Made by a program: the position numbers and the translations under genes. The notes beneath the pieces are model-generated. The model was given only the letters and a program-made list of their open reading frames with translations. It searched no databases and was not told where the DNA came from. 39,091 nucleotides of DNA from a virus: positions 1-39,091 of the IMG/VR virus record IMGVR_UViG_3300032163_000886; one strand, 5' to 3'. Shown here in pieces: positions 6,688 through 26,150 of this stretch. Within the stretch, counting starts at the first letter, position 1, and every line of letters starts with the position of its first letter.

Positions 6688-6894
6688 TCGACTTCGTTTT
6701 ATGCTCACTTTGGGAATATATGACTTAATCTGACTTTGCGCAATATCAACAGATGTTGTTGGCCCACCGACTAAAGCTGTTATACTATCTACTTTCGCGA
6801 CAGTATCATCTACTAAAGTAGCATCACTAGTAATAGGCGTAATGGTATGACCTTGGTGTTTAATAATTGTTATTGGTATATCTGTTGTTGCCAT
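6685..6894 (-). CDS. Small phage protein downstream of Ser/Thr-rich protein, unknown
   Basis: A 69-residue protein with a Thr/Ile/Val/Asp-rich body and a basic tail ending KVSIKRSR. Its start shares TAATG with the stop of the Ser/Thr-rich protein, so the two are translationally coupled and probably act together. No known family recognised. The stop codon TAG forms the first bases of the promoter element for the fibre gene at 6645. It may be a small fibre cap or chaperone, but this is only inferred from position. Confidence 0.55.
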   Translation of the reverse strand: MATTDIPITIIKHQGHTITPITSDATLVDDTVAKVDSITALVGGPTTSVDIAQSQIKSYIPKVSIKRSR

Positions 6895-10106: not shown

Positions 10107-10149
10107 ACTCTAATTAGTAACATAGAACTAGAAACGTATAAATGGTCTA
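10107..10149 (-). promoter_or_regulatory. Late promoter 3 (TAGACCATTT, leaderless)
   Basis: TAGACCATTT (10140-10149) with ACTAAT ending 6 nt before ATG 10106. TAG is the stop of the last glycosyltransferase gene. Distance 43 nt. The element therefore separates the sugar cassette from the tail-fibre genes. Confidence 0.65.
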
Positions 10150-11118
10150 TAGAGGAGCTACTGTGTTTTGAGGTATTTGATACACTTCGTCAGAATGTTT
10201 GGGACATACAGCTATTAGTCCATCAGTGGTATGCATGATTTCATGACATACATTACCGCCAGCATTTAGTTTCTGACAATAAACTCCCCACATATCGTGG
10301 CGCTCACCCCATTTTTCCCTTAAATCACTATGCTTAAGTTCATCCTGAACTAGTTGGCGCATATCTTGTTCTTCGTCAACTGATTGAAAACTTCTACTCC
10401 AGTGATGGAACACCCAGGATAAAGTAGTACCAATACAGCGATAACCAAACATACTGGCTCTACAGCAGAGATCATAATCATTAGCATTACCTGGATACCA
10501 AAACTCATCAATTAGACCCACCTCCAGCAAGCGTTTAGTATCAGCCACTGAACAATATAGGTTAATACCGTCAATAACAGTGCCTGGCTCAATTGTCATA
10601 CGCTCATTGACGTAGTGAGGCTCATCTATTAGCCAGCGCCAATCTTCTTCAGTATATTTTTCTTTGTAAGGCAAAATATAGTGGTCCTGGCCTTTAGGAA
10701 GCCCTACGGACCAATCGGGCAGTTTAATCGAAGCCGCGTTAATCAGTAACGCTGGACGCGTTGGTGTAGCCCGCTCAACCTTAATAAAGGTATCGACGAT
10801 GCCCTGCCACCAACCTATATTGACAAATTCTACGTCGTCGTTAAGAAATGTCACATAGGGTGTTTGGACTAAAGAAACACCTAAGTTAGTAGCCTGAGAA
10901 TGCCCTAAATTCCCCGTAAAATGGGTATCGGTACGAGGGGTACGAATAATCATGAGATTTTTAAATCTATCTCTCAACGACATATCAATACCCCTAGCTG
11001 TTTGGTCGACAATTATGACGTAAAAATTGTCGGGCGTATAGGCATATAAAGTCTCTAGGCAACGCTCAATCAAATCACCCCTAATAATAGGGATGATAAA
11101 CGTATTTTCTTTAGGCAT
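10147..11118 (-). CDS. GT2-type glycosyltransferase
   Basis: A 323-residue GT-A fold enzyme that should transfer a sugar from a nucleotide donor. The N-terminus has the short start form FIIPIIRGDLIERCLETLYAY. The metal-binding motif is NDD-VEF at residues 93-98 (DXD-like). The acceptor side shows the aromatic-rich NANDYDLCCRASMFGYRCIG stretch near residues 211-230, as in GT2 rhamnosyl-type transferases, and a later HHWSRSF. It is the last gene of the sugar cassette. Its start is coupled to the gene before it and its TAG stop belongs to the next promoter. Acceptor and sugar are unknown. Confidence 0.85.
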   Translation of the reverse strand: MPKENTFIIPIIRGDLIERCLETLYAYTPDNFYVIIVDQTARGIDMSLRDRFKNLMIIRTPRTDTHFTGNLGHSQATNLGVSLVQTPYVTFLNDDVEFVNIGWWQGIVDTFIKVERATPTRPALLINAASIKLPDWSVGLPKGQDHYILPYKEKYTEEDWRWLIDEPHYVNERMTIEPGTVIDGINLYCSVADTKRLLEVGLIDEFWYPGNANDYDLCCRASMFGYRCIGTTLSWVFHHWSRSFQSVDEEQDMRQLVQDELKHSDLREKWGERHDMWGVYCQKLNAGGNVCHEIMHTTDGLIAVCPKHSDEVYQIPQNTVAPL

Positions 11119-11476
11119 CTAGCAGTTTAGTGATGACTGGACCCATTTGATATTTCAGCAGTTCAGCGTCATCTACCTCTTGTACGTCTGACATCATGAA
11201 GCCTAAACTATCTACCAATTCTGGTCCTGTTGGACCGCTCTGGGTCCCCGAAATCCACTGACGAGTTTTCTTATTGTCGTCCAGTAAATATACTTTGTCA
11301 CCTGAAGTTTTTGTTCTAACTACTCTTTGACCCGCAGGCGTAACGCGTGCTGGCTCAACCGCGACTGGTTCAACGACCGTACCTTCTACTACTGGAGCGG
11401 GAACAGCTGTTTCAGCGGCTCGCTCTTCAGCGGCCCACTGGTCAATTAATTGATGTAATTTTACTATGTTTTGCAT
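11111..11476 (-). CDS. Small protein with KVYLL-type domain in glycan cassette
   Basis: A 121-residue protein: a helical start, an Ala/Pro/Val/Glu-rich linker (about residues 20-45), then a compact domain KVYLLDDNKKTRQWISG (about residues 61-77) followed by LVDSLGF and LLKYQMGP. This pattern (KVYL.d.gkkrWI..p...lGf) occurs as a short accessory domain in surface and glycan-related proteins of several uncultured bacterial groups. Its function is not established. A strong ribosome site (TAAGGAGGGCTAAA then ATG) precedes it. It overlaps the GT2 gene by 8 nt, suggesting a partnership. A possible role is carrier, acceptor or targeting module for the transferases. Confidence 0.6.
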   Translation of the reverse strand: MQNIVKLHQLIDQWAAEERAAETAVPAPVVEGTVVEPVAVEPARVTPAGQRVVRTKTSGDKVYLLDDNKKTRQWISGTQSGPTGPELVDSLGFMMSDVQEVDDAELLKYQMGPVITKLLDA

Positions 11477-11477
11477 T

Positions 11478-12455
11478 TTAGCCCTCCTTAATTATTTTAT
11501 CTATACGCTCCATCATTTGAGGAGTTGTATATTCATGGTTAATTAAATACTGACGATAGGATTCACTGTCATATTCTCCGTCAGTTATCATATCAATTGC
11601 CTCATCAATTCCTTGCCATACCCAGCCTGAATCACCCCAAAGTGGCTTATACCCTCCAAAAGCATGTATAACGGGTCGTATGCCCTTAGCAGCAGCCTCA
11701 GCGGTAATAGCAGAAAAGGCTTCCTTGATAGAGTTATTTAATAAGTAGTTCTTGTCTTCCAGCCATTCATCCAGATTATCCACCCAGTCTATAAAGGTAA
11801 TATTCAGTTTGTTATTCTTGATGAACTCTTCCATATAATAGCGGTGCCAGTGGTACTGTTGGTCTTTACCGAGATAGTAAATATGGTACCTTGGGTCGAT
11901 TCGCTTGAGTTTGAGGGCTATCTGGAGGGTGTAATCTATCCCTTTGGACTCCCAAATTTCCGATACTACAGCTATCTTAAACCCAGGTTTGCGCTCCCTA
12001 AACGTCCACTTATCTAAATTAACAGAGAACGGGATAACATGAATCTTCATCTTACTCTGTTGTGGGCGAGAGTCAGCCATCATTAAATCTCGTATATGAG
12101 GAGCAATGAATATGCAATCATTAACCAAATCCCAAAGCTTCTCATCAGCATGATGCCCACTAAAGACTTCTATATCCACTGGTTGAACTATAACTTTTTT
12201 ACCAGTTAAATCCATTTTGTGCATATCTGATTCTATAATCCCATCCTGAAGCCAGAGAGCTTGTAGGGCTTCATCAGGGTTCATAGCGGATTTCAAATTA
12301 TTATCGCACGTAAAGAAGTAGATTATATCAGCCCATTCAATTAGCGTAGGGTTGTAATACTGCTGATACTTAACCTCGTAGCCGTGAGACTCCCACCACT
12401 CCATAGGGTCTCTCATAAATTTCAGCCCATAGGGGTCGAATAAAAGTATCTTCAT
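11478..12455 (-). CDS. GT4-type glycosyltransferase
   Basis: A 325-residue GT-B fold enzyme. The N-terminal Rossmann half begins MKILLFDPYG, and the C-terminal half contains KIAVVSEIWESKGIDYTLQ (about residues 179-198), the donor-binding entry of GT4 enzymes. The region SIKEAFSAITAEAAAKGIRP (about residues 261-280) corresponds to the conserved EX7E area with Glu and the Gly turn. Its ATG overlaps the previous stop as ATGA. The donor and acceptor sugars are unknown. Part of the cassette that includes ten probable transferases. Confidence 0.8.
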   Translation of the reverse strand: MKILLFDPYGLKFMRDPMEWWESHGYEVKYQQYYNPTLIEWADIIYFFTCDNNLKSAMNPDEALQALWLQDGIIESDMHKMDLTGKKVIVQPVDIEVFSGHHADEKLWDLVNDCIFIAPHIRDLMMADSRPQQSKMKIHVIPFSVNLDKWTFRERKPGFKIAVVSEIWESKGIDYTLQIALKLKRIDPRYHIYYLGKDQQYHWHRYYMEEFIKNNKLNITFIDWVDNLDEWLEDKNYLLNNSIKEAFSAITAEAAAKGIRPVIHAFGGYKPLWGDSGWVWQGIDEAIDMITDGEYDSESYRQYLINHEYTTPQMMERIDKIIKEG

Positions 12456-13324
12456 AGGATACCCCGAACTATCGTCAGTAAATCTTTGACTCGGTTAACA
12501 ACTTTTAAATTCTCTTGAGCATATTGATACGATTTATCATCACCCCCCAAATGCCCGAAGTTTCTTATTTTTTCTATACAGTCATCAATATTATAGAAGT
12601 AGTCTACATAGTCATGAAATGTGCTTTCCATTAAAGGTATATGCCTAACCAGCGGTCTAGCTCCACAACACATTATCTGTGCCATTCTGTCTGACCAATA
12701 CCCTCTTTCTAATGTATGGTCTATTGCTAGAATAACTTTGGCCCTAGCATACAACTCGGGTAGGCCCTCATCCATAATCGGTGGACGCACATCCTCAAAC
12801 CCGTCCCATGCGTTTACTGAATGAATTACTAGGTTAAACTTCTCATCCACAGCTTTCAGGGTTTCATTTCTCTCAGTCGCCCAAGGAAGATAAGAACCCG
12901 TGAATAGGACATCAATGTCTTTCTCCACACTCAAATTAAGGCTTTTATCTAAGAACTTGGGCGCAAAGTCTTGACTTAAATATTGCCAGTTAGGATATTT
13001 AGAATCAGCTATTCGTTTAGATAAATATAAGTCAGCCCCAGCTACAAGTCTTTCGTGCCATTCTTGACCCCATTCCTGAAAGTCAAAACTCCAATAGACT
13101 ACAGGACAATTGAAATGTCGGAGATTAGTAGTCAATACTGCTGAATAGCCATCCCATTGAGATATAAGGATAAAATCATATTCTCCATAAGGAATCTGTA
13201 GTTCTTCACGTTGTTGCCTACTGACCTCATGCCCTAGTTCTTCTAATGCTCCAGCAATATGCTCTTCATCGCAAATAGAGCCATCCCAGCCTCTGCCAAA
13301 ATTACCAATACTTAATATTTTCAT
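12452..13324 (-). CDS. GT-B glycosyltransferase, CgeB/Glyco_trans_1_2-like
   Basis: A 290-residue enzyme from ATG 13324, chosen because it overlaps the upstream TGA as ATGA; a longer frame with 17 extra residues would overlap the upstream gene deeply. The N-terminus MKILSIGNFGRGWDGSICDE is Rossmann-like. DVLFTGSYLPWATERNETL (about residues 137-155) and DRMAQIMCCGARPLVRHIPL (about residues 218-237) match the C-terminal donor domain of the CgeB/Glyco_trans_1_2 group. Substrate unknown; expected to be cytoplasmic. Confidence 0.8.
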   Translation of the reverse strand: MKILSIGNFGRGWDGSICDEEHIAGALEELGHEVSRQQREELQIPYGEYDFILISQWDGYSAVLTTNLRHFNCPVVYWSFDFQEWGQEWHERLVAGADLYLSKRIADSKYPNWQYLSQDFAPKFLDKSLNLSVEKDIDVLFTGSYLPWATERNETLKAVDEKFNLVIHSVNAWDGFEDVRPPIMDEGLPELYARAKVILAIDHTLERGYWSDRMAQIMCCGARPLVRHIPLMESTFHDYVDYFYNIDDCIEKIRNFGHLGGDDKSYQYAQENLKVVNRVKDLLTIVRGIL

Positions 13325-14301
13325 GATGTAGCCTCCCTCAAAAACTCTCTCCAAGGCTGGATATGTTTGTCCCACTTCCAGTTATCTTGTATCTCGGCCC
13401 AGGCTAGATTACCCATAATCTTACGCTCTTTAGGGTGGTCACGCATCCAAACAACCGCATCTCTAACCTTTTCAGCCAGCTCTGGCTCGTCCTTATCTAT
13501 CAGAATACCTCCACCAGCGTCAGTAATGTGACGGTCAATACCTGTATTAGTAGCAATGACTGGGACTCCGCAAGCTGCAGCCTCTAGTACGGGGAAGGAT
13601 AAGCCATAGTAAGAATCACACCTCAGTAAAACATCTAAGCGATTATAGATATTAGGCATTCCCGACCAATACTTGCCACCAGCTACCACGCGCCCTATAA
13701 ACTCCATGCCGCCTAGTCGTTCAATCTTATCTTCTGTGCCACCATTATTCACCCAGCTCTGAGAAAATATCATAATACGCACACCCTCTAAATCGTAAAG
13801 CGGTTTAATGGCCTCTTCGAACATACGTCGCGGATTACCATAAGAACCAACAATACCAACGTGCAATAAATCATCTTCGCGCACCATGGGAAATGGTTTA
13901 AATAAATCCGTATCAATCCCAAACCGCACTTTATGAACTTTTTTGCCTGGGTACTCTCCAGCATCAGTTACGTCAGTCGTGGAAGCTAGGTGTTTAACTG
14001 CATTCCAGTGACCCTCACCTGGTTCATACATGACGATAGCCATCTTATCGAACCACTCTTTAGTTGTAGGCACTCCAGCATGTGTCGGCAATAAAGGAAT
14101 AATTAAGTCATACTCATTCGGATTACGTTCAAAGGGTGACGTGGCAGGGAAACGGTCTAAGAAATTATCAAATGGTTCGTAAGGTACTTGAGCCATTTCA
14201 ATAAAAAACTCATCGGATAGATACCTAATTAAGTATTCATAATGGGCTTCCATATACCAGCCACCCTGAATTCCTGGAGGAATGAACAATATTTTTTTCA
14301 C
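13321..14301 (-). CDS. GT4 glycosyltransferase
   Basis: A 326-residue GT4 enzyme with the clearest family signature in the cassette: GLSFPVLEAAACGVPVIATNTG at about residues 233-254, with the conserved Glu240. The GT-B donor half begins near HVGIVGSYGNP (residues 147-157). The start is GTG 14301, overlapping the previous TGA as GTGA. It lies between a methyltransferase and the CgeB-like transferase, so several sugars are probably added in sequence. Donor sugar not deducible. Confidence 0.88.
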   Translation of the reverse strand: MKKILFIPPGIQGGWYMEAHYEYLIRYLSDEFFIEMAQVPYEPFDNFLDRFPATSPFERNPNEYDLIIPLLPTHAGVPTTKEWFDKMAIVMYEPGEGHWNAVKHLASTTDVTDAGEYPGKKVHKVRFGIDTDLFKPFPMVREDDLLHVGIVGSYGNPRRMFEEAIKPLYDLEGVRIMIFSQSWVNNGGTEDKIERLGGMEFIGRVVAGGKYWSGMPNIYNRLDVLLRCDSYYGLSFPVLEAAACGVPVIATNTGIDRHITDAGGGILIDKDEPELAEKVRDAVVWMRDHPKERKIMGNLAWAEIQDNWKWDKHIQPWREFLREATS

Positions 14302-14852
14302 TTTTGCACTCTACCAATCTTTCCATGAAGCGCTTCCCACTTGCCCTCACCGAAATGGTCGTTCAGAAACTCTTTAACTCCTGGAGCGGCATAGTCTATG
14401 TCATGAAATAGCATTACTGAACCTGGAGCCATAAACGGTTCCCAACGCAGACAATTCTTTTTGACCTCTTCGTAATCATGACCGCCGTCAATAAATATCA
14501 GATTAATTGGCCTAGTCCAGACTCCAGCAAACTCATCAGCATCGCCGTGTACAAAGAAACCACGCTTCTCGAAACCAATAACACCTTCTTGTTCCGCAAA
14601 TGGGCCACGGCCAATCGTATGAGGCGCTACGGGCGGGACATCATGGATATCAACACCCACGATAAAGACGCCAGGTTTAGCGTAGTGCGAAGCCACAGCC
14701 ATACTACGTCCTTCGTCAACCCCTATTTCCAAGTAAATATCACCTGGTTCTAGCTTTTCAATTTCTGCTTTCATGATTAGCATATCGGCAGGACCAAACA
14801 TCCCCTGAATCGATTTTTCGATATGAGCACTTAATTCGTCAATAGTTTTCAC
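14298..14852 (-). CDS. SAM-dependent methyltransferase (class I, CmcI/Methyltransf_24-like)
   Basis: A 184-residue Rossmann methyltransferase. The SAM loop is IYLEIGVDEGRS (residues 39-50). VGVDIHD around residue 65 is the acidic strand-2 end. FIDGGHDYEEV (residues 120-130) provides the metal-type Asp/His/Asp seen in sugar and antibiotic O-methyltransferases of this group. It closes with VMLFHDIDYAAPGV. It starts with GTG overlapping the previous TGA as GTGA. A related enzyme occurs at 18773-19270. The likely role is O-methylation of a cassette sugar. Confidence 0.82.
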   Translation of the reverse strand: MKTIDELSAHIEKSIQGMFGPADMLIMKAEIEKLEPGDIYLEIGVDEGRSMAVASHYAKPGVFIVGVDIHDVPPVAPHTIGRGPFAEQEGVIGFEKRGFFVHGDADEFAGVWTRPINLIFIDGGHDYEEVKKNCLRWEPFMAPGSVMLFHDIDYAAPGVKEFLNDHFGEGKWEALHGKIGRVQK

Positions 14853-15739
14853 AATCGGTTTCTCCAGTCAACTAGAATATCTTCTAGTGTTTGCTCTAAT
14901 TTATATTGAGGCACCCAGCCACCATACATCCGAAACTTCTCACATGATGGCTTTTTAAAACTAAAATCACCAGGCCGATAAAGTGCAGGATTTATCTTAG
15001 TCTGAATGTCACATTTAGCCTTGCTAATTAAAATGTCCATAATTTCCTGCATAGTGACATTTTGGTCAGAACAGATAGAGTAAACCCCTGAAGGTAGTTC
15101 TATGGCTTGTTTGTAGGCCCGAACAATATCGCGTACATCGGTGTAGTTACGAACTGACTCCAAATTACCATGTTCCACAACTTGCCTAGTCCCATTCTCT
15201 ATTTCTACAATCTGTTTAGCAAAAGCACTCTCAGCGTACATCTCGCCCCTGCCTGGGCCTGCGTGGTTGTACGCACGTGTAATCACCACATCTAGGCCGT
15301 AATGGGCGTACAGGCTGCCTAAATGGTCCATAGCGAGCTTAGAAATTGCGTAAGGAGATAGTGGCCGCGGCAGAGATAGTTCGGTAATAGGAGCCTCGGC
15401 ATCGGTAGTATCGCCAAACTCTTCTGAAGTCCCAGCCAGATGAACTCTAGTTTTAATGCCCAGTTGCTTAACCGCTTCCAATAAATTCAGTGAGCCTAGA
15501 GTGTTTACCTCAAACGAGCGTCTGGGATTAACAATGGACTCGGGTACATAGGCCTGAGCTGCCAAGTGAAATATATGCGTAGGTCTGAAAACATCCAATG
15601 AGTTACGTAGTTGTTCATAGTTACGGATATCCTGACCATCACGCAGATTGAAGCCCTGAACCTCCCAACCCTCAGTTTCTAGTAAACTAGTGAGATGTTG
15701 ACCAACAAATCCCTTTGAGCCACTAATCCATGCTTTCAT
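14849..15739 (-). CDS. NAD(P)-dependent nucleotide-sugar reductase/epimerase (Rmd-like SDR)
   Basis: A 296-residue extended SDR. The cofactor loop is SGSKGFVG (residues 6-13; G-x2-G-x2-G). Catalytic Tyr130 and Lys134 are in SPYAISK, with Thr104/Ser105 in LAGTSEEFG. NHAGPGRG (about residues 157-164) and the ESAFAKQIVEIENG segment that follows match GDP-6-deoxy-4-ketomannose reductases (Rmd), which make GDP-D-rhamnose. NLESVRNYTDVRDIVRAYKQ (about residues 197-216) also fits that group. The start ATG follows AAAGGAGTTTC. Together with the adjacent DegT-type enzyme it suggests local synthesis of a deoxysugar. No dehydratase (GMD) is visible, so the keto-sugar may come from the host or elsewhere in the genome. 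Confidence 0.82.
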   Translation of the reverse strand: MKAWISGSKGFVGQHLTSLLETEGWEVQGFNLRDGQDIRNYEQLRNSLDVFRPTHIFHLAAQAYVPESIVNPRRSFEVNTLGSLNLLEAVKQLGIKTRVHLAGTSEEFGDTTDAEAPITELSLPRPLSPYAISKLAMDHLGSLYAHYGLDVVITRAYNHAGPGRGEMYAESAFAKQIVEIENGTRQVVEHGNLESVRNYTDVRDIVRAYKQAIELPSGVYSICSDQNVTMQEIMDILISKAKCDIQTKINPALYRPGDFSFKKPSCEKFRMYGGWVPQYKLEQTLEDILVDWRNRL

Positions 15740-16805
15740 GAAACTCCTTTATGGTCTGAACCACATATTTAATCTGTTTATCACTTAAGTATTGATGACA
15801 GGGAAGCAGTAAACCGTGATTATTGACAAAAGTCGCTCTAGGAAATTTTTTATTCTTGAGATACTTCTGGGCAATTGGCTGGTTGGTCAAGGGCATAATC
15901 TGTCTAGTTTGAATATCATGGTCAGCTAAATAACTAGCTAGGTCGTCGCGGTCTTCTGCAAAAATCGGGTAAAACATATAAGCATGATTAGGCTCCGTGG
16001 GACCTAATAAACTAGCGTTAAACTGCCGAGTTTTAATTATTTCGGCTAGACTATCAAGTTCAACTAACCCAAGTGCCGCTTCGAGTTCGGTTAATCTATC
16101 AGAATAGCCAAAACGAGGAAACTTATAGTGAGCACTAGGGTCTGCAATATCATCAATATTTAAATAAGACTCGTCGCGGCCATGGAACATCATTGAACGC
16201 ATAGTAGTAGCTAATTTTTTATCATTAGTAGCTATAAAGCCGCCAACTCCTGTTGTAACCAGATGAGCTAAATAGGTTGAGTAGCAAGCTACATCACCCC
16301 TGGGTTCGTAATCGATACCCATCATTTCACAGGAGTCTTCTATAACTTTTAAATTATTTTTCTTAGCACTAGCTATGATTCTCTGCATATCTGCAGGCCG
16401 CCCCAATAAGTGAACTGGGATAATCGCTCTAGTACGATTAGTCATAGACTGTTTCATTTTGGCAGGGTCTATATTTAAGGTGTCTTGGTCGATATCCACC
16501 AACACTGGCACTAAGTTATTCATCACCACTACATTCATAGTAGCCACAAAGGTCACGGCAGGAATTAATATTTCGTCGCCGTCTTTCCAACCATATTTAT
16601 CTTTCATGGCATGAATGGCTATTTTTAATGCATCCGTACCCGATGAGGTAAATAGAACATAGCCCCAATCGTGCAACTCAGCAAACTTCTCTTCCAGTTT
16701 TTCGGTAATTGGACCATAGGTTAAGCGCCCACTCTTAAGAACTTTATTAACCAACCTCTTCTGTTTCCAGGAAACCTTCCAATCGGCTAGTGGAACTGTA
16801 ATCAT
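15723..16805 (-). CDS. DegT-family PLP sugar enzyme with His in place of catalytic Lys (3-dehydratase-like)
   Basis: A 360-residue fold-type I PLP enzyme of the DegT/DnrJ/EryC1 family. TSSGTDALKIAIHAM (residues 53-67) is the phosphate-binding region, IPAVTFVATMN (81-91) is conserved, and VIEDSCEMMG (154-163) provides the ring-binding Asp157. Ordinary aminotransferases read SF...TK.(I/L)..GEGG; here the aligned stretch is STYLAHLVTTGVGG (residues 176-189), with His181 at the lysine position. Known members with His there (ColD, and E1 of CDP-ascarylose synthesis) remove the sugar 3-hydroxyl rather than transferring an amino group. Function as a 3-dehydratase is therefore inferred. Overlaps its neighbours at ATGA. 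Confidence 0.85.
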   Translation of the reverse strand: MITVPLADWKVSWKQKRLVNKVLKSGRLTYGPITEKLEEKFAELHDWGYVLFTSSGTDALKIAIHAMKDKYGWKDGDEILIPAVTFVATMNVVVMNNLVPVLVDIDQDTLNIDPAKMKQSMTNRTRAIIPVHLLGRPADMQRIIASAKKNNLKVIEDSCEMMGIDYEPRGDVACYSTYLAHLVTTGVGGFIATNDKKLATTMRSMMFHGRDESYLNIDDIADPSAHYKFPRFGYSDRLTELEAALGLVELDSLAEIIKTRQFNASLLGPTEPNHAYMFYPIFAEDRDDLASYLADHDIQTRQIMPLTNQPIAQKYLKNKKFPRATFVNNHGLLLPCHQYLSDKQIKYVVQTIKEFHESMD

Positions 16806-18058
16806 AACTTGTGCTCTCCGTCTTTATCTAGAATATAGGGGTAAGGCATAATAAATAATAACCTGCCGCCAGCCTGGATGTACTCTTGTTCACGAGCTAC
16901 AATCTCATCCTTGAAGTTCCAGGGAATCACAAACATTACATCAGGCTTCATGGCTCGAGCTTTCTCTTCTGAAATAAGTTTTATGCCCGTACCCAAAGTT
17001 TGTAAACCAACTTTGAATGGATTACGTTCTGAAATATAGGGCATCAGTTCTTTGCCAATGCCGCAGATTTGGAGTAGTACGTTGCCCTTCGTGGAAGCAC
17101 CCAGACCAATTACTAGCCCTTTCTGGCTGGCTACGTAAGCTTCAACTTTGGCGGCACTATCTTCAATCATATCGGCAAATTCTTTGTAAGTTTCGACCTG
17201 GTCAAGTCCTATGCCAATTGGTTTTTGAATTTCCTGATTCATGAATTTACCTAAATCACCATAGTCTTTATCTTCGATTTCTCGCTCTTTATGTACCACA
17301 ATAACCCGTAAGCTACCGCCGTTAACAGCATTAGTAGAGGCATCTATAATCTTCATACCATTCCGCTCCATAAGCTCAGATAAGCTGTGAAAAGAATAGT
17401 ATTCTAGATGCTCATGACAGATGTCGTAGAAATTCATATCTTTTATGGTGTCATAAAGATAACTAACTTGGATAATCGCTACACCATCATGGGTTAATAG
17501 AGTTTTGATTTCCTGAACAGCTCTATTCGGGTCGTCCAGGTCATAAAACATAGCGGTGGCAGTAATGATTTTATACAATTTATGTAACTTGGTAGAAGGA
17601 AAATAGTCTTCAATTATAGTGGTATTTTCGTCAAAATCGATAGCTGAACGGTCTATGTTCTCGGCAGGGTCTATTCCAACTTTATTTATAGTAACTGGAT
17701 AAAAAGTAAGCATTAACCCGTCATTACAACCGATGTCTAACACATTATCACCAGGGTTCAATTTGACTCTTGAACAAGCATCACGAACCACGTCACGCAA
17801 GTCACGATTCATGGTAGCCGATACATTGGACCGATAAAAATAATTCTTATAAAGCAGTTCGGGATTGACAGTTTCTTTTAACTGCACAAGTTTACAAAAA
17901 TTGCAAAGTAATAAAGTCAATGGTACCTTAATCTCTTGTTCAGGTTGCTGTTTTACAAAGGTAGAAGCTATATACTGAGGTTCAAAATGTACCACTTCTT
18001 CTAGGTCTGCAGACCCACACAAGCGACAATGAGTTATGTTAGTATAATTACTTTTCAT
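16802..18058 (-). CDS. Sugar C-methyltransferase (zinc N-domain, SAM core, C-terminal domain)
   Basis: A 418-residue, three-domain enzyme from ATG 18058, preceded by GGCAGGAGATTAAGA. An N-terminal zinc site has Cys11, Cys14, Cys52 and Cys55 (CRLCG, LLCNFCKL). The SAM core follows with NVLDIGCNDG (residues 105-114). Then come NGGSLRVIVVHKE (about residues 253-265) and the C-terminal domain VIGLGASTKGNVLLQICGIG, the pattern of NDP-keto-sugar C-methyltransferases (TylCIII/NovU/EvaC type). Such enzymes add a methyl to C-3 or C-5 of keto-deoxysugars, fitting the DegT and reductase neighbours. This would give a branched-chain sugar. Confidence 0.85.
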   Translation of the reverse strand: MKSNYTNITHCRLCGSADLEEVVHFEPQYIASTFVKQQPEQEIKVPLTLLLCNFCKLVQLKETVNPELLYKNYFYRSNVSATMNRDLRDVVRDACSRVKLNPGDNVLDIGCNDGLMLTFYPVTINKVGIDPAENIDRSAIDFDENTTIIEDYFPSTKLHKLYKIITATAMFYDLDDPNRAVQEIKTLLTHDGVAIIQVSYLYDTIKDMNFYDICHEHLEYYSFHSLSELMERNGMKIIDASTNAVNGGSLRVIVVHKEREIEDKDYGDLGKFMNQEIQKPIGIGLDQVETYKEFADMIEDSAAKVEAYVASQKGLVIGLGASTKGNVLLQICGIGKELMPYISERNPFKVGLQTLGTGIKLISEEKARAMKPDVMFVIPWNFKDEIVAREQEYIQAGGRLLFIMPYPYILDKDGEHKL

Positions 18059-18776: not shown

Positions 18777-19270
18777 AGATAAATTCTCGCCATGCTACAT
18801 TGCTGATTAGGAGAAAAATATACTTCCAGTTTGTGCTTCTTGGCAAACTCTTCGACGGCTCGAACTACTCCTGGCGAAGTCGCATCAGCATCATGAAATA
18901 ACATCACGCCTTTTTTAGCCATCTGCGGATACCAATTATCTATATCAGCCTTACAGCCCTCGTAAGTATGGTCGCCATCAATAAAAATAACATTGACTAA
19001 TTTATTATATTTAGCCACCGTACTATCTACCTGTAGAAAAGTTGTATCTGGAACCTTGGGGTCATCTCGCAAATCAACCCCAACTACTATCACGCCCTTC
19101 TTGGCTACCATCCGCGCTATCGATAAAGACTTACCTTTGTCTACCCCTACCTCTAAGTAAACCTGACCAGCTTTAAGCTTTTGAATCTCAGGAACACATA
19201 CTTCCATATCAAATGTAGAAAAAGCACCAAGATTAGCTTTTAAATCCAAAGCCCCATAATCAACCTTCAT
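18773..19270 (-). CDS. SAM-dependent methyltransferase (CmcI/Methyltransf_24-like)
   Basis: A 165-residue class I methyltransferase from ATG 19270; a frame 22 residues longer exists but lies deeper inside the upstream gene. The SAM loop is VYLEVGVDKGKS (residues 37-48), followed by VVGVDLRDDPKVP and VIFIDGDHTYEG with the metal-binding Asp/His. It closes with VMLFHDADATSPGVV. It resembles the enzyme at 14298-14852 along its whole length, suggesting a duplication or two sequential O-methylations. It sits between two GT2 genes. Confidence 0.82.
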   Translation of the reverse strand: MKVDYGALDLKANLGAFSTFDMEVCVPEIQKLKAGQVYLEVGVDKGKSLSIARMVAKKGVIVVGVDLRDDPKVPDTTFLQVDSTVAKYNKLVNVIFIDGDHTYEGCKADIDNWYPQMAKKGVMLFHDADATSPGVVRAVEEFAKKHKLEVYFSPNQQCSMARIYL

Positions 19271-20072
19271 ACTGCCTCTGTTCGTATTTAATTTTGCTTT
19301 CGTCAGTTGGAACCATATCTTTATTGCGCCAAACATCTGAGCCTAATTCGTCTCGGTCAAAACCAAATTTGTCATGAAAAAACTGTAAGTTGTTTTGGTA
19401 GAAATCCTGGTGAGTACCATCGAACGTACCGCTCTTATTAGAAAAGTGATACACTAATACATCTCGCAAGCGCATCGGCGTAACACCAGCTAAGTTGATA
19501 CGAGTCTGTAAGTCAGTGTCGCTGTTACTCCCCCACGGGTCATAGGCCGTATCGTAGCCTCCTAGTAGTTGCCATAAATCTCTTTTAACGAAAAACGGCA
19601 AATTAAAACCAGGTTCATCATTTGGTAGGTCGTCGGTTTTACGTTTAATAAAGCCATCAATCATCTCTTTGTTAAATTCTTTAAGCGTATAACCCGCGGC
19701 AAATTTCAGAAACGGCTCAGCGCTGCCTGGATTATTGGTTGGCTCAACTAAGTTTGGCGAAAACACTGGATAGTCAAAACGCAGGTTTTTATCCCAGCCT
19801 GGCGCATAGTACATATCATCATTTGACACCAAAATGTAATCGCTGCTAGAAACTTGAACACCTATATTAGTAGCCACGCATTGTCCTTGGCCGCTAGTAT
19901 GCATTCGTTTACTAATGCCAGAAATATTAAGAGGTACGGGCGTTGGCACACCATTAGTAACGACTACAATTTCTCCGTCAAAGCCAGATTCGCGAAGACT
20001 TTCCACGCAAAGTTTTAAATAACCTACAGTTTTTTCATTCGCCAAACTCGGTATCACAACTGAATATTTCAT
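19260..20072 (-). CDS. GT2-type glycosyltransferase
   Basis: A 270-residue GT-A transferase. YSVVIPSLANEKTVGYLKLC (residues 3-22) and EIVVVTNGVP (34-43) lead to the NDD metal motif at residues 84-86 (LVSNDDMYYAPGW). The acceptor face contains GGYDTAYDPWGSNSDTDLQT (about residues 187-206), typical of GT2 enzymes with an ED/SD general-base segment. The start joins the upstream stop as TAATG. Its ATG-proximal sequence has no strong ribosome site, indicating coupling. Substrate unknown. Confidence 0.85.
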   Translation of the reverse strand: MKYSVVIPSLANEKTVGYLKLCVESLRESGFDGEIVVVTNGVPTPVPLNISGISKRMHTSGQGQCVATNIGVQVSSSDYILVSNDDMYYAPGWDKNLRFDYPVFSPNLVEPTNNPGSAEPFLKFAAGYTLKEFNKEMIDGFIKRKTDDLPNDEPGFNLPFFVKRDLWQLLGGYDTAYDPWGSNSDTDLQTRINLAGVTPMRLRDVLVYHFSNKSGTFDGTHQDFYQNNLQFFHDKFGFDRDELGSDVWRNKDMVPTDESKIKYEQRQYEG

Positions 20073-20602
20073 TATAGTTCCAGCTTTAATTTTACTAATA
20101 CGCCTAGTCCCTCAAAAGCCTGTCTTAATTGCGAGGAGGTGGCATTGTCTTCGTCGGTAAGTAAGCGATGGTGAAATTCTATATCGAGTAAATCTAGCTT
20201 TTGGGCAGTTTTATCTTCTAGCATTTTACGCATAACAGGGTACTCGGCTCCTTCGATATCCATTGAAACACATATCGTAGCATCTTTCGGTAACTCTGCT
20301 ATAAACTTGGAGAAATCCATTGTCGGTACTGTAATCTTCCTGTCCACCGAATCACGAATACCGTCTATATGGGAAGCGTCATTACGATTTTCCAGCCTGA
20401 ATTCTATCTCGCCATCATCTGTCCAGACTGCTTTTTTAATCCACTCTACCTTGAAAGGAAAACGCTTTAACGATTCTTCGACATCAAGTTCAGTATTAGG
20501 CTCAAAGGCATAAACTTCCCAAGTATCATCTAGAAAAGGGGCATAATATTCTAATGCCTTACCGATGTAGTGGCCACAATCCAGGAAATATTTGTTTTTC
20601 AT
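20072..20602 (-). CDS. FkbM-family methyltransferase
   Basis: A 176-residue enzyme with FkbM hallmarks: YFLDCGHYIGKALEYY (residues 5-20) as the SAM loop, VYAFEPNTELD (31-41), KAVWTDDGEIEFRL (57-70), and VSMDIEGAEYPVMRKML (about residues 112-128), the conserved D-IEGaE signature. FkbM enzymes O-methylate sugars and polyketides. It overlaps the deacetylase-like gene by 4 nt at TATGA and is preceded by GTGAGG, a ribosome site. One of five methyltransferases in this cassette. Confidence 0.87.
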   Translation of the reverse strand: MKNKYFLDCGHYIGKALEYYAPFLDDTWEVYAFEPNTELDVEESLKRFPFKVEWIKKAVWTDDGEIEFRLENRNDASHIDGIRDSVDRKITVPTMDFSKFIAELPKDATICVSMDIEGAEYPVMRKMLEDKTAQKLDLLDIEFHHRLLTDEDNATSSQLRQAFEGLGVLVKLKLEL

Positions 20603-21165
20603 AAAACCTCACTGACAAACCTAAAGTCCGTCTCATCTTTAATTCTATCCATAATGTATTCAAACTGTTCATAAACCCCATTGCCCATACAACTCCAGCA
20701 ATGGTGGTGCATAGAGTTCTCCCCTATCTTATATACAGATAAATCTTTAGGACGGCGCTCATCATTATAGGCTTGGTCTGCTACCCACCAATCGTTGTCG
20801 TAAAGCCATTTGAGAACCTCGTCAGAAATCTGCCAACCTGGAGCTTTAAATCCTTTAACAAAATAATCTTCAATCATGTCGTAGAAAAACTCCATTTGCT
20901 CTTCAAATTGCTCATAAGTCATTTTTTCGCACTCGTAATTACTAGAGTGGTAAAAACCGTGCACGGCTAATTCAACCCAGTCTTTATTGTCGCGCGACCA
21001 AGTTAGCATCTCATGAGTCATTTCCCCAGGGATAGCAAATAAAGTGACCTTAAAAGCTGGATTTGCCTCGTGTAAAGCATTGAGCACATCTCGGCAATCA
21101 TGGCTCTGGCACATATCAGAAATTTCATGGTTGCACCCGAAATCATCGCTATCGAAGACTATCAT
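20599..21165 (-). CDS. NodB-like polysaccharide deacetylase
   Basis: A 188-residue NodB-fold protein. DSDDFG (residues 5-10) is the first motif with the catalytic/metal Asp pair. HGFYH (residues 69-73) is the zinc HxxxH motif. FKAPGWQ (106-112) stands for the RxPY/W motif. It is shorter than many deacetylases but holds the main catalytic elements. It would remove N-acetyl groups from a hexosamine; the substrate is unknown. It starts at 21165, right after the one clear gap in the cassette (21166-21199). Confidence 0.8.
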   Translation of the reverse strand: MIVFDSDDFGCNHEISDMCQSHDCRDVLNALHEANPAFKVTLFAIPGEMTHEMLTWSRDNKDWVELAVHGFYHSSNYECEKMTYEQFEEQMEFFYDMIEDYFVKGFKAPGWQISDEVLKWLYDNDWWVADQAYNDERRPKDLSVYKIGENSMHHHCWSCMGNGVYEQFEYIMDRIKDETDFRFVSEVL

Positions 21166-21199
21166 TTCATACCTACAATATAACCAATGATTAAATGGT

Positions 21200-21838
21200 T
21201 CATACGGCTTCCTTTGTTATAATGTAGATATCGTGCTTAGCGCCTTTACGGGGAATTTCATCATGCAACCAGCTCACGCCTAGCGAATCTAGAAACTTCT
21301 CCCACTTAGGTTGAGAGTACCAAGCACCCCAACCGTCTTTATCGTTTTCAGCTGGATTAATATTAATGTGGTCATCGTTCTCGGTTAAATGCCAAAAAGT
21401 AACTATTACACGCTTCTTAGCGACACGCAGAGCCTCTTTAACTGGTCCTTCGTAACCATTTGTGTGTTCAAGTACGTCTTGATATAAAACAACGTCCCAG
21501 GAGTCATCTGGCTCGTTCGGGTGTCTAACATCGCCCACGGCATAGAACTCATTCTCCGAATCAGGCTCTTCGGTCTTCTTATCGGCATGGCGCGCGCGCG
21601 CTACGCGTACGAAGCGTTCTGAGTAATCTAGCCCTTTATAGGCTGCTATAGCTGGACCAAACTGGAAAAAGTGGTCCAAATTCCAGCCAGGGCCGCAGCC
21701 AACATCTAAAACTGTTTCGCCATCATTAATTAACCCGCCAATAAAATGGCGTAGTGGCGAACCTGGACCTTCACCGTAAGACAGCATATAGGTTGCTGCA
21801 CCGTCATCATCACCCATAAGCTCATCCCAGTAATTCAT
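21200..21838 (-). CDS. SAM-dependent methyltransferase (Methyltransf_11/23-like)
   Basis: A 212-residue class I methyltransferase. Residues 43-50 (LDVGCGPG) form the SAM loop, with the GLDYSE acidic motif next, and VVLYQDVLEHTNGYEG (about residues 115-130) supplies motif IV. The N-terminus (MNYWDELMGDDDGAATYM) and the long insert around residues 150-175 with HININPAENDKDGW differ from the CmcI-like pair. It overlaps the preceding small Cys protein at ATGA. The TGA stop is followed by AACCATTT, a weak match to the late promoter element. Confidence 0.82.
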   Translation of the reverse strand: MNYWDELMGDDDGAATYMLSYGEGPGSPLRHFIGGLINDGETVLDVGCGPGWNLDHFFQFGPAIAAYKGLDYSERFVRVARARHADKKTEEPDSENEFYAVGDVRHPNEPDDSWDVVLYQDVLEHTNGYEGPVKEALRVAKKRVIVTFWHLTENDDHININPAENDKDGWGAWYSQPKWEKFLDSLGVSWLHDEIPRKGAKHDIYIITKEAV

Positions 21839-22050
21839 GATTTAATCCTTTTCATTTCGCGTCTGGTATTGCGCGCAGGACACGCTCCCGTTGGATAAGC
21901 GTCCACTCCTTGAGTAAATTCTACATGACAATGCATACAAATCATTGGCTGGGCCATAACTTTACGCATAGTATTATCGTATAATTTTTCTTCACCTATT
22001 TGTCGCTCTGGGCCATGTTTTGTAAATTGATGTGGCCAAAAATCACTCAT
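21835..22050 (-). CDS. Small Cys-rich protein, putative zinc-binding
   Basis: A 71-residue protein. CMHCH near residues 38-42 and CPARN at 57-61 could bind a metal, but only three Cys are present and His must help. The N-terminus is rich in charged residues (PHQFTKHGPERQIGEEKLYD) and the C-terminus is basic (TRREMKRIKS). It is coupled to both neighbours by ATGA overlaps. No family recognised. Perhaps a small regulator or partner of the adjacent methyltransferase. Confidence 0.55.
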   Translation of the reverse strand: MSDFWPHQFTKHGPERQIGEEKLYDNTMRKVMAQPMICMHCHVEFTQGVDAYPTGACPARNTRREMKRIKS

Positions 22051-22718
22051 ATCGACTCCCTACTAAATATTTGCCTTATGTCCCCAGTTTCTACCTTGAT
22101 GTCGGTAATACCGTTGACGTAGCCTTCGGTAGTCACATAGGTAGAATTAGGGTTAATGTATACACGATTCCCTGTGCCAAGCGTATCTTTACCACGACCC
22201 ATTCCTTGCCGCCAGAAACCCAAAGATAATTGGGTCGAAAAAGCTACCAGATTTTCCATATAATCCTGTGGTAATTCCACGGAATCAAGTAATTTAGTTA
22301 GCATTTTAGCTCGCATAATTGAACCTGGTATATAGGCCACCTCTACAGGATAAGGTACTTTAGATTTCTTATCATAATTAGGCACAATGCCATCACTATA
22401 ATCGTTGTTAATTGAATAACCAAAAAATCTATTGGCCCAATTATTGACACAAGTCGAAGATGACATCACCGCCATTTTTTTAAACATCGGGTCTTTTTTA
22501 AATAAACCTAGTTGAGAAATGAAATAACCTGAACCGACCAGGCAATCAGCCTCTACAAAACAAACATAAATGTTTTTAATCTTTGGCAAATAATCAAACC
22601 AATCCTCAGAAACTATCAATTCAGCTCCAGGGATATCCTTTAATTCACGCCATAAATTTTCATAAGTAAGTTGCACCACCCTGTCCTCACCATCATTTTT
22701 TATGATAACGCTTAACAT
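22047..22718 (-). CDS. GT-A-like glycosyltransferase, short
   Basis: A 223-residue protein from ATG 22718, which follows GCAGGAGAAGACG; a 14-residue longer frame lies inside the upstream gene. GAELIVSEDWFD (residues 31-42) and CFVEADCLVG (53-62, with Glu56 and Asp58) resemble the DXD region of GT2 enzymes, but the GT-A core is compressed and the usual acceptor motif is not obvious. It probably still binds a nucleotide sugar. Alternatively it is a non-catalytic partner of the GT2 next to it. Function is inferred mainly from the neighbours. Confidence 0.6.
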   Translation of the reverse strand: MLSVIIKNDGEDRVVQLTYENLWRELKDIPGAELIVSEDWFDYLPKIKNIYVCFVEADCLVGSGYFISQLGLFKKDPMFKKMAVMSSSTCVNNWANRFFGYSINNDYSDGIVPNYDKKSKVPYPVEVAYIPGSIMRAKMLTKLLDSVELPQDYMENLVAFSTQLSLGFWRQGMGRGKDTLGTGNRVYINPNSTYVTTEGYVNGITDIKVETGDIRQIFSRESI

Positions 22719-23481
22719 CGTCTTCTCCTGCAAATAATAGTAATTCGTCTTTAAAATCACCTTGTGTTAAAGCTGGGTGGTCAATATCTCTATGGCCGCT
22801 CTCTTCAGGCTTCATAGTCTCTTCGTAACCCCAGCGGTCAGTTCCACCTATGCCGCGCGTACCAAACAAATGTAAACAACGAATCTGTACCGCAAAAGCC
22901 GTACCGTAACCAGCTTCTCGTAATTTTCCGCATATATATGTTTCTTCGGACCCGCGGCCAGGTGCGCCTCTATCCCATCCCCCGACCTTTTGCACAGCAT
23001 CGGTTCGCATAATCCTAAACGAACCGCCAGGGTGAGCAAAGTCTAGAATGTCGTCCCCTGCTTTATCAGAAAATTCAAATATTTCACCCGAGCCAATCAT
23101 TACTTGAGTGCGCATCGAAATGGCTGCATAAGTTTCATATTTAAACATAAGCTCAAGCATTCGCTCTAGCCAATCTTTATCTTCTTTAATCGGTGGCGGC
23201 AAACAGTCGTTATCGATACAAACAAAATATTTACTCTGAGTAGCATGGACCAACATGTACTGTCGAGCTTTTTCCAGGCCACCATTCTTATCCATAACCA
23301 TTAATTCGTCGATTAGCTTTTCTCGATGCAGTCCTTGAAGCATGATTTGGGTCGAAAGCTCTGAACTATTATCTAAAACTACCAATCGATAAGTACCTGA
23401 TTTGGTGTTGCGTTTAATGGTTCGAATAACTAATTCAGTCATTTTAGGCCGATTCCAAGATACTAGATGCAAATCAGTCAT
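22693..23481 (-). CDS. GT2-type glycosyltransferase
   Basis: A 262-residue enzyme from ATG 23481 (preceded by GGAGAAATTC). HLVSWNRPKMTELVIRTIKR (residues 5-24) is the GT-A donor strand with the Trp-Asn-Arg-Pro motif, VVLDNSSEL (34-42) is the first acidic element, and CIDNDCLPPP (88-97) carries the DXD-like Asp-Asn-Asp. FAHPGGSFRIMRTDAVQKVG and GGWDRGAPGRGSEETYICGK mark the acceptor side. An overlap of 8 nt with the next GT2 upstream suggests coupling. Substrate unknown. Confidence 0.85.
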   Translation of the reverse strand: MTDLHLVSWNRPKMTELVIRTIKRNTKSGTYRLVVLDNSSELSTQIMLQGLHREKLIDELMVMDKNGGLEKARQYMLVHATQSKYFVCIDNDCLPPPIKEDKDWLERMLELMFKYETYAAISMRTQVMIGSGEIFEFSDKAGDDILDFAHPGGSFRIMRTDAVQKVGGWDRGAPGRGSEETYICGKLREAGYGTAFAVQIRCLHLFGTRGIGGTDRWGYEETMKPEESGHRDIDHPALTQGDFKDELLLFAGEDDVKRYHKK

Positions 23482-24367
23482 GAATTTCTCCGAAATACTG
23501 ATAAATTTCTTCGCTGGCGCGTGGATACTGTACATAAAGTAGCACGTCTTTTTGTTGGTCATCGGGCAGCTCTGGTTCGGTTGGATGAAGCGGCTGTGAA
23601 AAATTATCTCTAGTCAATAAGTAAAATTGTAAATGATCGTCACCCCAGGGGTTGCCCAAACTTGTGCCGTGTCGATATTCGCCATCTTCAAATATGTTCT
23701 CTGGGTGCTCACCCCTATCTGGCTCGTTGGGCGAGAACCTCATAGGAAATTTAGAAGTAGCCGCGAACTGGTAAGGATTAACTTCGTCAGGAATTCTATA
23801 CTTCGGGTCGCTAGCCCATAGCTCACGCTTAAAGACGAACGAGCCACAACCTATACCGCCACTTCTGAACCATTCATGACCATTACCTTCCCTAAGTGGT
23901 CTAAACGTCTTCCTGATAACCGTGTGATGGTCAGGAAAATGAATAATAGAACCAAAATTAAATATTTTATACTCAGGAAAATCTTTACCGGCCTGGTCAA
24001 TCTCGCGTAAGTAGTGAGTTAAGTATTCGTCATCACTATCCATCCAGCAAATCCATTCACCTTTGGCGGCCTCCATCCCCCTATTGCGAGCAATAGCTCG
24101 GTTTTCATTTTCTTTGTGGATAACTTTAATACGCTTATCGGCTTTAGCGAATTTGTCCAAAATTCTTGGAGTCTCATCGGTACAGCCATCATCAACTAAA
24201 ATAAGTTCCCAGTCAGGAAATTGTTGGTTAATAATTGATTTAATGGCCCGCTGAACCTGTTTGGCGCGGTAGTGGCGTTGCTCTTCTGGTAGAGACTCAG
24301 GGTCGGTAGCTGAATAGACAGGTATAACTACACTAAATTTGGGTGTCGTTTTGCTGTGTGAGTCCAT
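23474..24367 (-). CDS. GT2 glycosyltransferase (classic inverting type)
   Basis: A 297-residue enzyme. FSVVIPVYSATD (residues 11-22), LILVDDGCTDETPRI (55-69), and the metal site DSDDEY (110-115) are textbook GT2 features. NRGMEAAKGEWICW (95-108) precedes the DXD. The Asp/Glu base is expected near residues 210-240 (PDRGEHPENIFEDGEYRHGT). The start ATG follows GGAGAAGGAAA. It overlaps the GT4 at 24333 by 35 nt. This is a good candidate for the first or second sugar transfer of the cassette. Confidence 0.9.
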   Translation of the reverse strand: MDSHSKTTPKFSVVIPVYSATDPESLPEEQRHYRAKQVQRAIKSIINQQFPDWELILVDDGCTDETPRILDKFAKADKRIKVIHKENENRAIARNRGMEAAKGEWICWMDSDDEYLTHYLREIDQAGKDFPEYKIFNFGSIIHFPDHHTVIRKTFRPLREGNGHEWFRSGGIGCGSFVFKRELWASDPKYRIPDEVNPYQFAATSKFPMRFSPNEPDRGEHPENIFEDGEYRHGTSLGNPWGDDHLQFYLLTRDNFSQPLHPTEPELPDDQQKDVLLYVQYPRASEEIYQYFGEIHD

Positions 24368-25652
24368 TTTCCTTCTCCACCATTAGCAACGGCTCTATAA
24401 AGTCCCTGAAAACAGCATCAGTATTGCGCTGAGTGCGGACCCAAGTTTTTGCCCTAAGTACCTTATCGTTATCTATGTAGTAACGAAGAGCTTTTGCAAT
24501 ATCCTCATAGTGGCCATTAACATTGCTATGATTAGTATTAATTTCGCCATCAAAGCCACCCATATCAATGTTGGCTCCGTCAAACTGCTTATAAAGGGCA
24601 TTGGTACCATAGATTTGCCTGAACGGTGCAAAGTCATGATTCAAGATGCAGAAATTACCTTTAAGCATAGCTTCTTGAGCAATTAAAGAATATGTTTCGC
24701 TTTTACTGGCCAGCAAGAAAACATTCGATAAAGTAAATAAATCTAAGACGATGTCATGCGAAACTTCCATAGAGGCTAAATCATCAAATTCAGAAATAAA
24801 AGTTACACACTCAGGCGCACCTAAATCATTAGCTAGAGTTTTTAGGTCTTCGCGGTAGATAACTTTATCGTCACCTGTTGACTGAAAATCACAGACCACT
24901 AAATGAGCCGATAAACCAATCGATTTACAAGCCGCAACTAAACGTACATTAGCTTCAGCATATTTACCGCGGTCTAACCTAATCGGTAATACCATCAAAA
25001 CCTGCACATCACCTAAATGTTTCTCGTCATAAAGCCGCTGAACTAGAGGATGCATCCCCTCTACGGGGTCAGTTGAATGCGGCACTTCAACAATTTCATT
25101 CTCTTCAAAGTTAAAGTTGCGAGCCACTCGCGGGATATCATAGGCATTAGGATAAGCAATTATTGAATTGGGAAAGGGCGAATTTAGGGCTTCAGCATAC
25201 TTCTCGCCGTACATGCTGCGCTCTTTACCGATAATAGTCGGGTTAGTGGCTGAGTGAATCCAGTGAACCCAGCGGATTGAAGGACGGTCCGTAGCCAAAC
25301 GACGCGCTGCAAGGTTAAGTACCGTGTAATCAGGTAAGAAGATAAGGTCATGAGTAATAACAACAGCATTGTCAGGTAAAACACTAGTAAGCTGGTCGTA
25401 GGCCAATCCCACTGTCTCATCGATATTCTGAGCCTGGTCATTAGGGCCATGCAGAGCAAAAGGATATAAATATTTAGTTTCTGTAGTTGCATAAATTTCA
25501 TCATCGGTCTCCCATCCCTCACAAGCAATAAGTACAGGATTATATCCTGCTCTCTTCATCATCTTAATTTGTTCTTTTACAACTATTATCGGAGAAAATG
25601 ACTTCAAATAAGTACTAAAGTTGGTCAACAAATAAATATCCTTAGACATCAT
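24333..25652 (-). CDS. GT4 glycosyltransferase
   Basis: A 439-residue GT-B enzyme, the first gene of the sugar cassette in transcription order. VVKEQIKMMKRAGYNPVLIA (about residues 25-44) is the N-terminal half; VLMVLPIRLDRGKYAEANVR (about residues 214-233) begins the donor half; FLLASKSETYSLIAQEAMLKG (about residues 313-333) contains the EX7E motif of GT4. Residues 190-200 contain VPHSTDPVEG. Its start overlaps the HNH gene by 11 nt; ATG 25652 and ATG 25649 are both possible. Function: sugar transfer, substrate unknown. Confidence 0.85.
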   Translation of the reverse strand: MMSKDIYLLTNFSTYLKSFSPIIVVKEQIKMMKRAGYNPVLIACEGWETDDEIYATTETKYLYPFALHGPNDQAQNIDETVGLAYDQLTSVLPDNAVVITHDLIFLPDYTVLNLAARRLATDRPSIRWVHWIHSATNPTIIGKERSMYGEKYAEALNSPFPNSIIAYPNAYDIPRVARNFNFEENEIVEVPHSTDPVEGMHPLVQRLYDEKHLGDVQVLMVLPIRLDRGKYAEANVRLVAACKSIGLSAHLVVCDFQSTGDDKVIYREDLKTLANDLGAPECVTFISEFDDLASMEVSHDIVLDLFTLSNVFLLASKSETYSLIAQEAMLKGNFCILNHDFAPFRQIYGTNALYKQFDGANIDMGGFDGEINTNHSNVNGHYEDIAKALRYYIDNDKVLRAKTWVRTQRNTDAVFRDFIEPLLMVEKENGLTQQNDTQI

Positions 25653-26088: not shown

Positions 26089-26150
26089 GAACAATAAACC
26101 TAGTCAATGGTTTATGTCAACCACTTTAGAGAATATTGCTGTGGAAAAGT

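Follow-up and report, generated by a model that had tools for sequence, protein, structure and literature searches.

In Gram-positive bacteria, serine-rich repeat adhesins are served by a GT-B lead enzyme whose gene lies beside that of the acceptor. The long Ser/Thr repeats of these adhesins are O-glycosylated inside the cell, according to two reports (PMC6973325, PMC7948813). Among phages, the mycobacteriophages Che8 and Rita are reported to undergo phage-encoded virion glycosylation, with glycans on capsid and tail-tube C-termini (Freeman 2023, as cited in PMC12619734 and PMC11256854), and Maravista has two putative glycosyltransferases near its genome end (PMC11256854). The cyanophages P-SSM2, S-SSM7 and S-SM2 carry lipopolysaccharide (LPS)-type clusters near hli03/phoH; the available excerpt gives their function as unknown and shows no link to acceptor tracts (PMC3037559), so that, for phages such as these, it is undecided whether polysaccharide clusters are directed at the host or at the particle. 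Here we describe a ~15-kb cassette of 20 tightly packed minus-strand genes, many of them for predicted glycosyltransferases, at positions 10147-25652 of the IMG/VR virus record IMGVR_UViG_3300032163_000886, whose 39,091 bases, analysed as a whole, are called the window. We conclude that the cassette probably adds O-linked sugars to mucin-like tracts on the phage's own virion, because tracts and cassette are co-inherited, the tracts are cleanly lost from two proteins, the association recurs in unrelated phages, and it is enriched in contigs recruited blind to the enzymes. The same four lines of evidence support the particle glycan proposed in a preliminary description of this DNA.

Like virion glycosylation in mycobacteriophages, the system is built on phage-encoded glycosyltransferases; unlike it, the window combines a 20-gene cassette including deoxysugar enzymes and methyltransferases with co-inherited Ser/Thr tracts on several proteins, and the candidate acceptor regions are genetically tied to the enzymes through contig counts, clean tract loss and enrichment. 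Virion glycosylation being already known, what looks new is the pairing of dedicated scaffold tracts with a multi-enzyme cassette in joint inheritance, and the literature, covered in part, yielded no description of phage-virion Ser/Thr tracts inherited together with such cassettes. By analogy, the serine-rich repeat adhesins appear to be the closest functional counterpart, a likeness of composition only (the tracts of the window span 55-376 residues). In contrast to those systems, the proteins here are viral, no accessory Sec component (SecA2/SecY2, Asp) was found among the 20 cassette genes, and neither NCBIfam nor PDB sequence identifies the lead gene product, gtT, as GtfA/GtfB, with which it shares general GT-B fold similarity only. 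The cyanophage clusters resemble the cassette as large polysaccharide-type clusters in a phage genome. Bacterial Wzx/Wzy loci likewise combine GT2/GT4 with deoxysugar enzymes, but Pfam detected no flippase, polymerase, ligase or initiating membrane phosphoglycosyltransferase among the cassette genes.

The near-pure Ser/Thr blocks that the preliminary description had noted in three proteins are real (94, 376 and 55 residues), although they flank the cassette and none lies inside it (Table 1). Shuffling of the window proteome, tracts excluded, gave at most 12 Ser plus Thr per 20 residues, whereas the tracts reach at least 16. Serine is encoded by its six codons in even proportion, even though two substitutions separate TCN from AGY, and Tandem Repeats Finder detected only short arrays inside the tracts. 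It is therefore the protein sequence that is kept, not a DNA repeat, and expansion of a repeat at the DNA level was rejected as the origin of the tracts on the same two grounds. The positions of the three genes point to a virion location of their products. AlphaFold2 modelled the tract of the 671-residue protein as unstructured, in a model that is poor as a whole (mean predicted local distance difference test, pLDDT, 53); a PDB sequence search with this protein returned nothing, and calling it a tail nozzle is a guess. Following the longest tract, a 54-bp direct repeat (6930-7043) encodes two copies of PRGTI(K/R)PE(I/V)NRMS(V/I)QTDD.

The preliminary description had asked whether related contigs lose or gain cassette and tracts together, and they do. 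With cassette-free relatives obtained by capsid-profile scans, 61 contigs of the capsid family were informative: 28 carried tracts and cassette, 32 neither, one a tract only and none the cassette only. Omitting the nine positives recruited via gtT (eight) or via the tract pattern (one) left 19, 32, 1 and 0. Four relatives of 38-55 kb (G001, G006, G011 and G013) hold the cassette in the same place as the window. Ten genes (gtT, gtS, gtR, gtQ, mtO, nodN, gtL, gtD, gtC and gtA) are present in all eight well-covered cassettes, namely those of the window, the same four relatives and L255, L256 and L257, and the remaining genes vary. The C-terminal tail of the protein encoded next to the major capsid protein (MCP) gene is found in all eight and belongs to the most strongly conserved segments of the protein; the insert of the 671-residue protein and large tract proteins also occur in the four relatives. 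Three near-complete genomes of 47-49 kb (G019, G022 and G023) lack GT2, gtT and any tract throughout. Homologues of the MCP neighbour in G019, G022 and other cassette-free relatives stop at NxxPxYG(V/L/F/A), exactly where the tail starts, and alignment showed that the homologues of the 671-residue protein in cassette-free relatives are continuous, without the insert of ~95 residues. One contig, L180, has neither cassette nor tracts, yet is nested among positives on the capsid tree, on which parsimony requires four changes per trait.

Such co-loss is not predicted if the cassette alters the host surface polysaccharide, for superinfection exclusion or altered release, and the tracts are independent linkers. 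We consider this improbable. Soluble GT2/GT4 and deoxysugar enzymes are indeed typical of surface-glycan loci, and P-SSM2 and S-SSM7 bear large 'LPS' clusters whose use the source calls unknown (PMC3037559). However, the cassette lacks the flippase, polymerase, ligase and membrane-bound initiating enzyme, and it sits among late structural genes.

Recruitment that ignored the enzymes gave a second line of evidence for glycosylation of the tracts. Viral contigs longer than 30 kb were collected by a DNA pattern for Ser/Thr tracts (n=30), and the GT2 control consisted of 31 contigs drawn by means of an arbitrary 14-mer. GT2 domains above the cut-off were present in 17/30 tract-recruited contigs compared to 4/31 controls (p 4e-4), three or more GT2 in 8/30 compared to 0/31 (p 0.002), and gtT at E < 1e-40 in 10/30 compared to 0/20 (p 0.003). 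Tracts richer in Ser went with more GT2 (rho 0.53). Several of these contigs belong to a second, divergent group (G029, G033, G074, G080, G095 and the shorter G077) with the same gene order as the window, in which tails on small proteins beside the capsid gene are followed by a gtT cassette and huge tract proteins. In four of its members the homologue of the 671-residue protein is split into two open reading frames (ORFs), and a Ser/Thr tail closes the first of them where the protein of the window has its internal tract (G029:7038-8812, G074:38321-38599, G080:41908-43763 and G095:31770-33583). The combination of gtT and tracts also occurs in G085, G058, G060 and G062, whose structural genes are different or show weak relationship; the 52-kb G058 (L294-L296) encodes four proteins with tracts of 703, 843 (plus 84), 250 and 208 residues, ~1,940 Ser/Thr in all. 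Within a genome, tracts have a common dialect even when they sit on different proteins: the within-genome 5-mer cosine was 0.765, whereas 1,000 label permutations never exceeded 0.522, and 62 of 70 tracts had their nearest tract in the same clade (14.6 expected). We read this shared dialect as co-adaptation of enzyme and acceptor, to which tract exchange within a genome could contribute. In G080 the gtT frame (24384-25703; L476) contains one in-frame TAG, possibly reflecting stop-codon readthrough, recoding or error.

These recurrences also bear on the explanation that tracts and cassette merely travel in one exchangeable late-region block, swapped jointly and not acting on each other. The tracts adjoin the cassette, and all differences of the window lineage are confined to one ~25-kb block; still, joint swapping would require in-frame breakpoints inside two genes, and the association is seen again in other phages, where the tract-bearing proteins differ, as well as in contigs whose recruitment took no account of the enzymes. 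We hold linkage without function to be quite unlikely. A mixed use, in which the tract sugars copy the host surface for camouflage or for reuse of host glycan receptors, finds an echo in the core and variable periphery of the cassette, which resemble antigenically variable surface glycans; we give it little credit. An MCP scan of genome contigs recovered 34 relatives; all were devoid of tracts and cassette enzymes, and none pointed to a named host of the lineage. A search of genome contigs for gtT relatives found none, and in INPHARED bases 1-25000 of the window had no close counterpart at the DNA level and gtT had no tblastn match. That the glycosyltransferases decorate hypermodified phage DNA bases is barely credible, since it leaves the tracts unexplained and PF00303 (thymidylate-synthase/hydroxymethylase) is absent from G000 and 11 related or tract-bearing records, several of them fragments, even if DNA glycosyltransferases are known in phages (cited in PMC12619734).

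Several observations weigh against glycosylation of the tracts by the cassette. The capsid tree offers only two independent contrasts on well-supported branches, four over all branches, and therefore cannot reach significance alone. Because tracts and cassette are adjacent, block exchange could account for part of the co-loss. The single tract-only contig is a 20-kb fragment (L196), and L205 has one GT2 and no tract. Homologues of gtQ (26-32%), the only cassette gene also present in relatives without cassette and tracts, occur in G019:23990-24583, G022:9378-9980 and G023:16613-17215, where they could represent a remnant or serve a function of their own. Remote gtT homologues are found in G063-G066 with no tract or a single short Thr run, and Thr-rich tracts are common in phages without GT2. 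Tracts as such are frequent in IMG/VR (71/80 pattern hits). The general rule that any Ser/Thr tract implies glycosylation was discarded, given this frequency and the fact that Thr-rich tracts mostly come without GT2 clusters. Thr-dominated tracts with APP/VPP breaks (L063-L133), mostly lacking GT2 clusters, may represent a different, unglycosylated type of linker.

If the cassette does glycosylate the tracts, the process could run as follows. Late in infection, soluble phage glycosyltransferases would work in the host cytoplasm, with no need for membrane steps, and build a decorated oligosaccharide on Ser/Thr of the tracts that several virion proteins carry as grafts. The acceptors would be the C-terminal tail of the MCP neighbour, the internal insert of the 671-residue protein and the 376-residue tract. 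As candidate first-sugar enzyme, gtT would start O-glycosylation on the tracts, the conserved core of about ten genes would extend this first sugar into a backbone, and the variable genes would add strain-specific ends. The particle would then emerge with mucin-like, sugar-coated bristles that might serve shielding or adsorption. Gene content, presence or absence of tracts, co-inheritance, conservation of the tracts as protein and recurrence are observed; glycosylation, enzyme order, sugar identities, the virion location of the tract proteins and coat function are predictions. Whether this extends to a widespread 'phage mucin' system is, in our judgement, evenly balanced; it would comprise dialect-bearing scaffold tracts on ordinary virion proteins, gtT as a previously unnamed GT-B family that starts glycosylation, and a co-moving modular deoxysugar cassette, giving several virion lineages variable sugar coats as in some eukaryotic viruses. 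If true, many uncultured phages would carry dense O-glycosylation, each genome encoding from hundreds to ~1,900 potential sites, with consequences for adsorption, particle recognition and particle stability, and gtT would represent a new family of candidate protein O-glycosyltransferases that are soluble and whose acceptor dialects can be read. The acceptor can be specified in this system and examined one residue at a time.

The enzyme content largely agrees with the preliminary description, which had listed about ten glycosyltransferases, five methyltransferases, a NodB-like deacetylase, a nucleotide-sugar reductase and a DegT-type enzyme. Pfam assigns eight glycosyltransferases (five GT2: gtA, gtJ, gtL, gtR and gtS; three GT4/CgeB-like: gtC, gtD and gtE), and gtQ stays unassigned. 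The product of gtT has no Pfam match above the cut-off and no NCBIfam family, and its profile gave only noise against PDB sequences; its AlphaFold2 model (pLDDT 70) matches GT-B/GT4 enzymes (best E 1.3e-11), and gtT would thus be a ninth glycosyltransferase by predicted fold. All five methyltransferases were recovered by Pfam (two Methyltransf_24, one Methyltransf_13/23/14, one FkbM and one Methyltransf_11), and the NodB-like deacetylase is a weak match. The reductase call was right: the closest PDB matches of sdrG are GDP-6-deoxy-lyxo-4-hexulose and GDP-6-deoxymannose reductases (E 9e-55 and 2e-42). For degH the DegT family holds, but the enzyme is more likely a 3-dehydratase of the ColD/E1 type than an aminotransferase, because a His replaces the pyridoxal phosphate (PLP)-binding Lys of its best PDB relative, which we take to be the mark of these dehydratases in the family. 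This His is kept in the window, G006, G011 and G013, and the PDB matches include ColD (2gms) and E1 (3bb8, 3bcx). From the type of reductase and the His-type DegT protein, the predicted sugars are therefore 6-deoxy and probably also 3,6-dideoxy sugars, which would bear C- and O-methyl groups. Hydropathy analysis revealed no strong transmembrane segment in the cassette proteins.

Table 1. Genes of the cassette and of the three Ser/Thr-tract proteins that flank it
Gene	Product	Position	Strand	Details
	671-residue tail-region protein; Ser/Thr insert, residues 415-508 (94 aa), between two conserved stretches	2315..4330	-	
	Protein mostly of Ser/Thr tract, residues 20-395 (376 aa)	6894..8237	-	six Ser codons evenly used
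gtA	GT2 glycosyltransferase, core	10147..11118	-	PF00535 E 9e-9; in 8/8 compared cassettes
	small conserved protein	11111..11476	-	no Pfam match; homologues in G001, G006, G011, G013, G080
gtC	GT4-like glycosyltransferase, core	11478..12455	-	PF13692 E 2e-6
gtD	CgeB-like glycosyltransferase, core	12452..13375	-	PF13524 E 4e-8
gtE	GT4 glycosyltransferase, variable	13321..14301	-	PF13692 E 5e-12
	Methyltransf_24 (CmcI-like) methyltransferase	14298..14852	-	PF13578 E 5e-17
sdrG	SDR nucleotide-sugar reductase, RMD-like	14849..15739	-	PDB 2pk3 E 9e-55; YxxxK conserved
degH	DegT family, probable 3-dehydratase	15723..16805	-	PF01041 E 1.5e-76; His at PLP-lysine position
	sugar C-methyltransferase	16802..18085	-	PF08421, PF13489, PF08484
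gtJ	GT2 glycosyltransferase	18048..18776	-	PF00535 E 2e-13
	Methyltransf_24 methyltransferase	18773..19336	-	PF13578 E 6e-12
gtL	GT2 glycosyltransferase, core	19260..20072	-	PF00535 E 3e-7
	FkbM methyltransferase	20072..20602	-	PF05050 E 2.5e-8
nodN	NodB-like (weak) polysaccharide deacetylase, core	20599..21165	-	PF01522 E 0.02; DSDD and HGxxH motifs conserved
mtO	Methyltransf_11 methyltransferase, core	21200..21838	-	PF08241 E 4e-13
	small Cys/His protein, 71 aa	21835..22050	-	homologues in G001, G006
gtQ	possibly degenerate GT2	22047..22760	-	no Pfam match; homologues in cassette-free relatives
gtR	GT2 glycosyltransferase, core	22693..23562	-	PF00535 E 4e-10
gtS	GT2 glycosyltransferase, core	23474..24367	-	PF00535 E 1.6e-28
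gtT	GT-B fold glycosyltransferase, cassette lead gene	24333..25652	-	fold match to GT4/GT-B enzymes
	MCP neighbour, presumed virion protein; C-terminal Ser/Thr tail, residues 224-278 (55 aa)	26546..27382	-	

The arrangement of the locus, 20 tightly coupled genes between head and tail genes on the late strand, is as first described. Overlap of neighbouring genes is usual, the intergenic gaps from gtA to gtT being -8, +1, -4, -55, -4, -4, -17, -4, -38, -4, -77, -1, -4, +34, -4, -4, -68, -89 and -35. The head genes (terminase, portal, scaffold, decoration and MCP; 33896 to 27455) lie on the minus strand, as do the 278-residue MCP neighbour, a small protein gene (26151) and an HNH gene between MCP and cassette. 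On the other side, again on the minus strand, follow a tail-fibre-like protein (8631-10106), the 376-residue tract protein and late-region genes including that of the 671-residue protein. Strand and position among structural genes point to late expression of the cassette glycosyltransferases. HNH endonuclease genes are located at 25642-26094 in the window, 7220-7699 in G011, and 6944-7429 and 15386-15826 in G013; their differing positions among relatives, inside or beside the cassette, suggest homing-type mobility within it. Elsewhere in the window (36085-36973), a zinc-ribbon ORF and an HNH endonuclease gene (PHROG 3377) overlap; the ORF presumably resembles an IS1595-type transposase in its N-terminal part.

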